A stretch of 64,000 nt of DNA from Microcoleus vaginatus WJT46-NPBG5 (GTDB lineage: Bacteria; Cyanobacteriota; Cyanobacteriia; Cyanobacteriales; Oscillatoriaceae), in the NCBI GenBank assembly GCA_019359355.1, contig JAHHHM010000003.1, positions 248,001-312,000 on the forward strand. The letters are read 5' to 3'. Below the pieces are notes generated by a model. The model had not been told where the DNA came from. It did no database searches and worked only from the letters and a program-made list of their open reading frames with translations. Positions within the stretch are counted from its first letter, which is position 1. Each line of letters begins with the position of its first letter. Of this stretch, positions 18,815-21,003 are shown one piece after another. The position numbers were made by a program, and so were the translations under genes.

Positions 18815-19076
18815 TGGTGGCCGCTTTATGTGCTTTCACCGGCTCAATTCGGTCGCTCATCCCAGGTTATGAGTCAAAGAGTGCCGGCATCCACTAACGC
18901 AACCGGCTAGACGGAAGGTAAATCTTTAGTAAGTTCTGGCAGCCGGCACAAAGTGGCAAGAGCATCGAGAGAGGGTTTGGCTGATTCTATTGCAGAAAAA
19001 AATAACTGAACCGAAAAAAATTGAAAAACTCGCTGCGCTCGCTAAGAAAAGGGTAAAAGAGTAAGAGAGAAAAGGG

Positions 19077-20828
19077 TTAAATAGTCGTTGCGGGAACGAG
19101 TGCCACCCGAAAACCGAAGAAGTCGTCCCTGCTGTCCGGCTCGTCCCTGTTACGATTCGCACTACGGCAGCTCCTGGGGTTGCTGACCCAAGAACCCCCA
19201 CGCCGCAACCGGCGATTGCTGTCTCCGCCACTTTCCCACGCACTGCCATCAGAAGGCGCACCGTTATAATTTTCATGCCAGACATCTTGACACCACTCCA
19301 TAACATTGCCGTGCATATCATACAGCCCGAAGGCATTGGGTGGAAAACTCGCGACATCGGTTGTTTCTTGCCGATTAACGCCTTGTGATCCCCTGGCGTA
19401 AGTGCTGTTGCCAGCATAGTTAGCTAAGTCAGGCGTGATTGTCTCACCAAAGTAAAACGGGGTGGTGGTGCCGGCGCGGCAGGCGTATTCCCACTCTGCC
19501 TCGCTGGGTAAGCGGTAGCAGCGTCCCATTTTTAGCGAGAGTTTCTGGCAAAATGCAACGGCATCATTCCAAGATACTTGTTCCACCGGGCTGTTATTTC
19601 CTTTAAATTTAGCCGGGTTATTGCCCATTACGGCTTGCCACTGTGCTTGAGTAATGGGATATTTGCCTAAGAAAAACGGCTGTACCCTTACCCGATGCTG
19701 CGGACTTTCACTGCTATCTCGCTTTTCTTCCCAATTTGGGGAACCCATGAGAAATGTGCCGCCCGGAATTGACACCATTTCCAAAATTACATTGTTACCA
19801 AGTTTTTCTGTAAAAACTTCTGCTTGTCCCTGCTGACAACTAACAATTTGTCTCTTAGCATCAACGGTAACAGTTGTAAATTGAAAAGGGGAAGTTGGAA
19901 GGGCGGGTGCTGCAATCACTGTAGTCTGTTGAGATGGGAAAGAAGGATTGGGAAGCACCGGCGCTGATATTACTGTACTCTGTTGAGATGGGGCTGTTGG
20001 CAACGTAGATACTGGCAGAGAATTGAGCGTTTGCAATACTTCTGCTGCATTTGCATAGCGGTGCGTAAAGTGATCTCGCACCATTTTGCTTAAAATCTCT
20101 GCTAAAGCATCGCTCACAGATGCGTGATTTTTCCAAATCACTTCACCGTCATTATCTTCTTCGAGCAAATCAGGCTCGATGCCAGTCAAAGCAAAAATGA
20201 CTGTCTTTCCCAGTGCGTAAATATCGCTGCTTGGTTTTGGCTTGCCCATTGCTTGTTCACTGGGCATAAAACCAAGCGTTCCAATAGAAACCGTGCGGCT
20301 CGTTTGTCTTGATAAAATTGTCTTCTGGGTGCCAATCTCCTTAACTGCCCCAAAGTCAATTAGCATCAACTTGCCATCTTTTCGCCGCATAATATTCTGG
20401 GGTTTAATATCTCGATGGATGATATTGTTCTGATGAACATAGGCCAGAATTTCTAAAGTTTCCTGCAACAATTTAATCGCATAAGTTTCGCTTAACTTTT
20501 TGCCCGGACTCAATTCTTTGCTTAAGTCATGCCCTTCGATAAATTCCTGAATGAGATAAAATTCTTGATTTTCTTCAAAATAGGCAAATAGTTTGGGAAG
20601 GCGCTCATGGTTTTGCGCCAGTTTATATAAAATTTCCGCTTCTTTTTGAAATAAACGTTGAATATCAGGGTTGATCGCTTCGGGTTGCAGCCGCTTGACG
20701 ACACATTTAGGCTTCGGGGTGACGGGAATATCTAAATCATTTGCCAAATAAGTTTCCCCAAATCCCCCGCTTCCTAGGAGTTTGACAATTTTGTAGCGAT
20801 TTCGCAGGATTTTACCGGCAACGAGCAT
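19077..20828 (-). CDS. Serine/threonine kinase fused to an FGE-sulfatase domain; likely DGR target protein
   Basis: The product has 583 residues from ATG at 20828 (CGGAG nine bases upstream). A frame extension to 20903 would run into a mobile repeat and is rejected. Residues 10-275 form a Hanks kinase: GSGGFGETY loop, K45, E63, HRDIKPQN at 138-145, DFG at 158-160. A Ser/Thr/Pro/Gln linker of about 65 residues follows. The C-terminal FGE-sulfatase domain (about 350-578) shows MVSIPGGTFLMGSP, RLPSEAEWEYACRAG, NVMEWCQD, RRGGSW and a final FGFRVAL. This fold is the standard C-type-lectin scaffold of diversity-generating retroelement targets, and its last 40 residues bear that codon signature. It is probably a receptor-like signalling protein. 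Confidence 0.92.
   Translation of the reverse strand: MLVAGKILRNRYKIVKLLGSGGFGETYLANDLDIPVTPKPKCVVKRLQPEAINPDIQRLFQKEAEILYKLAQNHERLPKLFAYFEENQEFYLIQEFIEGHDLSKELSPGKKLSETYAIKLLQETLEILAYVHQNNIIHRDIKPQNIMRRKDGKLMLIDFGAVKEIGTQKTILSRQTSRTVSIGTLGFMPSEQAMGKPKPSSDIYALGKTVIFALTGIEPDLLEEDNDGEVIWKNHASVSDALAEILSKMVRDHFTHRYANAAEVLQTLNSLPVSTLPTAPSQQSTVISAPVLPNPSFPSQQTTVIAAPALPTSPFQFTTVTVDAKRQIVSCQQGQAEVFTEKLGNNVILEMVSIPGGTFLMGSPNWEEKRDSSESPQHRVRVQPFFLGKYPITQAQWQAVMGNNPAKFKGNNSPVEQVSWNDAVAFCQKLSLKMGRCYRLPSEAEWEYACRAGTTTPFYFGETITPDLANYAGNSTYARGSQGVNRQETTDVASFPPNAFGLYDMHGNVMEWCQDVWHENYNGAPSDGSAWESGGDSNRRLRRGGSWVSNPRSCRSANRNRDEPDSRDDFFGFRVALVPATTI
19081..19215 (-). other. Candidate DGR variable region
   Basis: On the minus strand the invariant frame GGTTCTTGG, TGCCGTAGTGCGAATCGT and GGTTTTCGGGTGGCA is interrupted by clustered codons such as GTC, AGC, GAC and TTC. 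Nearly all keep C in the third position and are reachable from AAC by changing only adenines. This is the footprint of adenine-specific mutagenic retrohoming. No template repeat or reverse transcriptase lies in the window. Confidence 0.7.
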
Positions 20829-20896
20829 AGTCTGTACTCCGGGCAGTGGCAATTTATTAATTTTCGCACAATAGCCCTGGCTCCCACATCGCACTG

Positions 20897-21003
20897 GGTG
20901 CATCTCACTTTAGCAAAAATATCAGGAGTGGGAGCATCTTGCTCCCTAAAATCAGAAGCGGGCAAGATGCCCGCACTACAGATTTCCAAAAATGGGATGC
21001 GCC
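20897..21003. mobile_element. MITE-like palindromic element, copy 1
   Basis: The 107-bp element has ends GGTGCATCTC and GGGATGCGCC. Inside are two perfect hairpins, GGGAGCATCTTGCTCCC (20930-20946) and GCGGGCAAGATGCCCGC (20958-20974), whose centres are mutually complementary. It aligns over its whole length with the copy at 31491. It sits between the RNase J gene and the kinase start, in the kinase leader or promoter. Confidence 0.75.

Follow-up and report, generated by a model that had tools for sequence, protein, structure and literature searches.

The closest described systems are cyanobacterial targets of diversity-generating retroelements (DGRs) in which a C-terminal C-type-lectin (CLec) domain is fused to a Ser/Thr kinase, remote targets included (Vallota-Eastman et al. 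2020, PMC7517822; this and the other comparisons with published systems refer to excerpts of the cited papers). In the same paper all3226 is a remote paralog with remnant homology between template repeat (TR) and variable region (VR). Targets in Treponema denticola isolates without a reverse transcriptase (RT) and a TR have been called likely leftovers (PMC4891356). Tandem VRs in FGE domains have been described, as has a heavily mutated RT next to distal targets (PMC3521204), and adenine mutation at DGR targets is recorded for cultured Nostoc punctiforme (PMC12691664).

The window is a stretch of 64,000 nucleotides (G000:C28:248001-312000) from the draft genome of Microcoleus vaginatus WJT46-NPBG5, here G000 (6.46 Mb, 44 contigs, 99.63% complete), which is compared with two congeners, G001 and G002 (20 and 30 contigs; one assembly per species), and with G003 and G006 of the sister genus g2. 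One of its genes resembles the targets of PMC7517822 in the domain pair, the position of the VR and the presence of remote paralogs with no nearby RT; that set comprises 52 genomes with a complete DGR, whereas an RT or template is found in none of the three congeneric genomes here. The window gene is probably an orphaned, frozen DGR target. The case of T. denticola is similar in that its VRs differ from known TRs mostly at adenines and an isolate is without RT and TR, and it differs in that other isolates of that species supply the known TRs, whereas here templates occur only in other genera, RT and TR are found in none of three genus members and the downstream cis signals are lost too (PMC4891356). 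DGR 7 and DGR 3 of Thiohalocapsa PB-PSB1 also have diversified targets with machinery broken or missing in the reference genome, and there long reads gave population variants with intact RT and TR for DGR 7 and intact RT for DGR 3 (PMC10907252). As leftover targets and kinase-CLec targets have already been described, the kind is known, and the present example is one at genus level in which the cis signals have eroded. The features of the locus are as follows.

19077 to 20903, minus strand: kinase-FGE target gene, an open reading frame of 608 amino acids encoding a Pkinase and FGE-sulfatase (C-type-lectin-like) fusion
19188 to 19202, minus strand: 5' framework CGT GGN GGT TCT TGG (RGGSW), kept in seven of eight VRs and RGGCW in one
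19116 to 19187, minus strand: VR core of 24 codons, between RGGSW and GFR, from the alignment of eight VRs and real templates
19083 to 19115, minus strand: 3' tail GGTTTTCGGGTGGCACTCGTTCCCGC with the IMH-like place at its end, here AACGACT
19046 to 19076, minus strand: pyrimidine-rich tract 3' of the stop codon, like that of complete DGR targets
19029 to 19042, minus strand: GC-rich GCGAGCGCAGCGAG, with no perfect hairpin, where RT-carrying relatives have a GC hairpin

The product of 19077-20903 gives Pfam matches to Pkinase (4.5e-37) and FGE-sulfatase (2.8e-59), and comparison with paralogs suggests the inner Met of MLVAGK as a possible true start. Searched against PDB sequences, the FGE part matches T. 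denticola variable protein 1 (2y3c) with an E value of 9.9e-30, the same end being covered; this protein is a DGR target. The C-type-lectin/FGE scaffold with a C-terminal VR is present in the window gene and, as the initial annotation had it, is fused to a kinase with neither RT nor template nearby. Relatives of the kinase-FGE protein were kept at 78 named loci, 15 of them non-cyanobacterial by title, the first listed being from Okeania (60%). The minus strand of 19081-19215 reads ...RRGGSW VSN PRS CRSANRNRDEPDSRDDFF GFRVAL... and the protein ends RGGSW-VSNPRSCRSANRNRDEPDSRDDFF-GFRVAL, so that the invariant framework previously described around the variable codons is recovered at both RRGGSW and GFRVAL. 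Within the 3' tail the six codons GGT..CTC have zero third-position differences among six of the eight VR copies.

Three VRs are found in G000, the window VR and two strong copies, the other six matches having E >= 0.48, and both further copies belong to a single 931-aa kinase, encoded on contig C2, whose FGE domain is present twice in tandem. With three VRs in G001 and two in G002, the genus totals eight VRs, carried by six genes that occupy two syntenic loci across the three species; all eight differ and every reading frame is open. Tandem-FGE kinases with one DGR-type VR per FGE domain lie at L011 7404-10199 and L067 9058-11748, both on the minus strand. Their inner VRs are without the GGACT end, and at this locus G002 has a single-FGE version (L069 8087-9877).

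Aligned with the template of G113, a genome from another family, 74 of the 80 codons that stand opposite AAC or AAT in the eight VRs of the three congeneric genomes end in C, against 26.9 +/- 4.1 expected for the encoded amino acids on the basis of codon usage (z = 11.4). The window VR has C in all ten of its codons of this type, in agreement with the third-position C noted at the outset, and in its own genome 0/30 AAC-type codons are without their C. The GAG codon that had been singled out as the exception is now explained by the G113 template, which has GAG at that place, other copies in the genus having GTG, GGG or ATG. Pairwise differences at codon positions 1, 2 and 3 amount to 305, 248 and 118 per 672 codon comparisons in the VR and to 457, 386 and 1010 per 4200 comparisons upstream of it. 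Ordinary positive selection on the lectin-like domain, with no retroelement, would not hold third bases at C to this degree in the face of differences at position 1 in 45% and at position 2 in 37% of comparisons, nor does it fit the adenine bias of the differences from the real G113 template; an adenine excess that is weak relative to the sister-genus templates (given below) speaks in its favor, and the explanation is highly improbable.

The eight VRs served to rebuild a query template in which A was typed by judgment wherever they vary, so that it is partly circular, and 291 genomes of the order were searched with it. Outside the genus, the seven matches heading the list come from one genome each (G113, G063, G155, G238, G264, G091 and G009) and are situated 37-95 bp away from that genome's DGR RT match; the six that were read (all but G091) are Asn-rich templates. 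The best real template, that of G113, is 88% identical to the rebuilt query, compared with 79-87% for the source VRs themselves and 83% for the g2 template of G003. In the 3' half, picked after viewing and given with uncorrected p values, the window VR is changed at 7 of 17 adenines and at 0 of 19 other bases of the G113 template (one-sided p = 0.0023), and seven of the eight VRs have p < 0.05. Over all 24 codons 12/28 adenines and 7/44 other bases are changed in the window VR (p = 0.013, also uncorrected); with G113 as the reference the differences are biased towards template adenines. The excess is weak relative to the G003 template, with one-sided p < 0.05 in two of eight VRs and the window VR not among them, and reaches p < 0.05 in none of eight VRs relative to the G006 template (two-sided). 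The sister-genus templates were set aside as the direct template on this ground, and another template lineage is likely because the adenine excess against them is mostly not significant.

The window VR is of DGR origin, as eight VRs differ, NNC codons are in excess and the rebuilt template recovers templates beside DGR RTs, and the earlier proposal of a DGR-type VR closing a kinase/FGE-sulfatase gene is borne out by the same evidence. The missing template does not refute this origin, since templates that match are still present in other genera. In the favored explanation a DGR composed of RT, Avd and template RNA would once have copied adenine-mutated cDNA into the 3' ends of kinase-FGE genes, paralogs included, and the rewriting would have set those residues of the FGE/C-type-lectin sensor domain that face the ligand, which the kinase would sense through this domain. 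RT, Avd and template would since have been lost from G000 and its two congeners, the retrohoming cis signals (the GGACT motif and the downstream hairpin) would be decaying, and the kinase-FGE genes would persist as intact sensor kinases of fixed specificity. We infer past retrohoming in this lineage and present inactivity of the target genes, which suggests that a sensor shaped by hypermutation can outlive its retroelement.

No template repeat beyond the VRs is found in G000, G001 and G002, the remaining matches being weak (E >= 0.028, scores only). The RT query P0002 is the DGR RT of G016, which is part of a VR-Avd-RT-TR-VR cassette and is 34% identical to BPP-1 brt. All first-look candidates of the three genomes were scored with P0002; G000 has no match at E <= 0.01 and the congeners have only scraps (E 0.0047-0.0096; best 0.0078 in G001 and 0.0047 in G002), and E < 1e-160 was obtained in sister-genus G003 and G006; a repeat search at E <= 1e-8 gave no match in G000, G001 or G002. 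PF00078 has a single match in G000 and recovers no DGR-type RT there, and RVT_1 matches, counted without RT class, number two in G001 and one in G002. The best Avd match in the genus has E 0.45 in a search run without a positive genome, the query being DivGenRetAVD by NCBIfam. A flank protein of the g2 cassette, ParB-like by reading, has no match in the present genus (g1) at E 1e-10; the search had no positive control and carries no weight for an empty syntenic site of the cassette. The reverse transcriptase at G000:C17 (791 aa, L012 5388-7763), which is the sole RVT_1 match of that genome, has RT_UG19 of class DRT as its best PADLOC match and was set aside as a driver.

In the initial annotation the window gene would be a remote target, served by a DGR in another part of the genome, and a genome search for template repeat and RT was called for; neither is found in this assembly, which speaks against present activity there. 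The window gene shares with leftover targets a DGR-type VR, a genome in which RT and TR are not found and a template in relatives. RT, Avd and template are undetected in three genomes that keep kinase loci of DGR shape, so that the VR signature alone is no proof of hypermutability now.

It is unlikely that the targets are still diversified in trans by a DGR outside the assemblies, carried on a plasmid or by a fraction of the population in a hit-and-run manner. RT, Avd and TR are undetected in all three assemblies, and these are drafts (44, 20 and 30 contigs) that may miss a plasmid, which counts against the orphan reading as does the weak adenine excess relative to sister-genus templates. Six cyanobacterial plasmid records have a P0002-type RT, the retention of C in all 30 AAC-type codons of G000 would also fit recent rewriting, and the Thiohalocapsa variants with intact RT and TR or intact RT are a precedent (PMC10907252). 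The plasmids are NZ_AP026076, NC_019429, AP018301, NZ_CP117770, NZ_CP046974 and NZ_CP025929, with DGR-type RTs 66-70% identical to P0002, the match in NZ_CP025929 covering only 64% of the query. A phage-borne source was set aside: identity is 27-37% at the 17 loci on viral contigs and stays under 60% in all 89 phage records, of which 20 rows were listed.

At RT-carrying loci the order is VR, stop codon, pyrimidine tract and often a GC hairpin, and the VR often ends in GGACT opposite GCACT or GTACT of the template. The cassettes of G016 and of g2 (G003 and G006) are alike in their FGE-type targets, the shared framework and a VR end GGACT against GCACT in the template; they differ from the genus loci in the presence of RT, Avd and template, and a GC hairpin stands behind the VR in G016 and, for each g2 cassette, at its first target. 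Cis signals were counted by a single function in 35 terminal VRs at RT-carrying loci and six in the genus, excluding the two inner VRs of the tandem genes. The GC hairpin is present in 0/6 genus VRs compared with 25/35 at RT-carrying loci (Fisher p = 0.0018, the counts being phylogenetically non-independent; shuffled flanks 5%), GGACT in 3/6 compared with 25/35, and the pyrimidine tract in 5/6 compared with 26/35. The window VR ends in AACGACT, an altered GGACT motif, and folding gives no hairpin downstream of it (z 0.60). These losses also argue against diversification in trans.

Other cis observations weigh against the orphan reading. GAGGACT is kept by three of the six terminal VRs (one other in G000 and both in G002), 10/35 VRs at RT loci are also without a hairpin, and RT-negative G078 still has a hairpin behind its VR. 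The downstream stem-loop of BPP-1 is described as helpful and not strictly required (PMC12875486). Since complete cassettes provide a reference for the signals, absence of the hairpin and of GGACT may separate live from dead targets. The proposal that the domain is hypermutable now is not sustained, with template, DGR RT and Avd undetected in three assemblies, the hairpin absent behind all six terminal VRs and the window GGACT altered; what stands of the initial annotation is the DGR-type VR on a kinase-fused FGE scaffold, and what lacks support is the remote, currently hypermutable target.

Both kinase loci are syntenic in the three species with flanks ~90-96% identical. Divergence is 3.7-10.1% in neighbouring genes and 6.5-7.6% among the kinase domains of the C2-type locus, which are 8.9-11.5% apart from the window-type kinases of G000 and G002; the window-locus kinases have little ortholog signal (10.1% from G000 to G002). 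The FGE domain before the VR is 15.0% apart in syntenic pairs and 14.8% in other pairs, FGE and VR distances are essentially uncorrelated in Mantel tests (r 0.12 and -0.09), and A-site states in common amount to 0.379 for orthologous VRs and 0.381 for other pairs. Continuing diversification in trans would account for same-locus VRs of the three species having no more A-site states in common than non-orthologs; however, the whole FGE domain is without ortholog signal, and lost VR memory therefore needs no recent DGR. Dating of the last rewriting through ortholog VRs is undone by this same control, and recent rewriting is indistinguishable from old diversity shuffled with the FGE domain. Because FGE domains are without the ortholog signal that C2-type kinases and neighbouring genes have, shuffling of whole sensor domains is possible.

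The equal distance of syntenic and other FGE pairs is also consistent with a genus that never had the retroelement and acquired its FGE sensor modules, diversified beforehand, through horizontal transfer or recombination. The kinase domain of G001:C16 (L068 5367-7460), at the conserved locus syntenic to the window, is 27-29% diverged from the five others, as if replaced, and the template nearest by identity is in another family rather than in the sister genus, both in line with transferred modules. The near-identical framework and tail of the eight VRs fit one template lineage, and the two loci are syntenic in all three species, both of which speak against such a transfer, and it is judged quite unlikely. 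Rewriting in passing by a mobile, non-resident DGR, for example a plasmid-borne one, or swapping of FGE domains between loci after the loss, is unlikely.

Across the 291 genomes of the order at least 53 have an RT, 77 a VR/TR-like match, 41 both and 36 a VR/TR-like match only, the RT counts being lower bounds because at most six candidates per genome were scored. Of the VR/TR-only genomes 33 of 36 are outside the genus, and 13 were searched again, with no match at E <= 1e-8 in three and matches only 25-31% identical in ten. Among the fetched RT loci 9/12 have the group-II-like QGxxISP motif; L281, L282 and L289 have no motif line, L281 and L289 being the weak RT matches of G008 and G078, one each. 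VR-TR pairs ~400-540 bp apart with no recognised DGR RT occur at L278 (G234), L252 (G078), L259 (G008) and L261 (G054), and no RT match is present in the fetched stretches at these four loci. At the pairs of G234 and G078 the search for Avd gave only a chance-level scrap (E 0.60, in the G078 stretch). The four pairs are apparent cases of RT loss with the template kept, the VR-TR spacing being ~405 bp in G234 (two contigs) and ~457 bp in G078.
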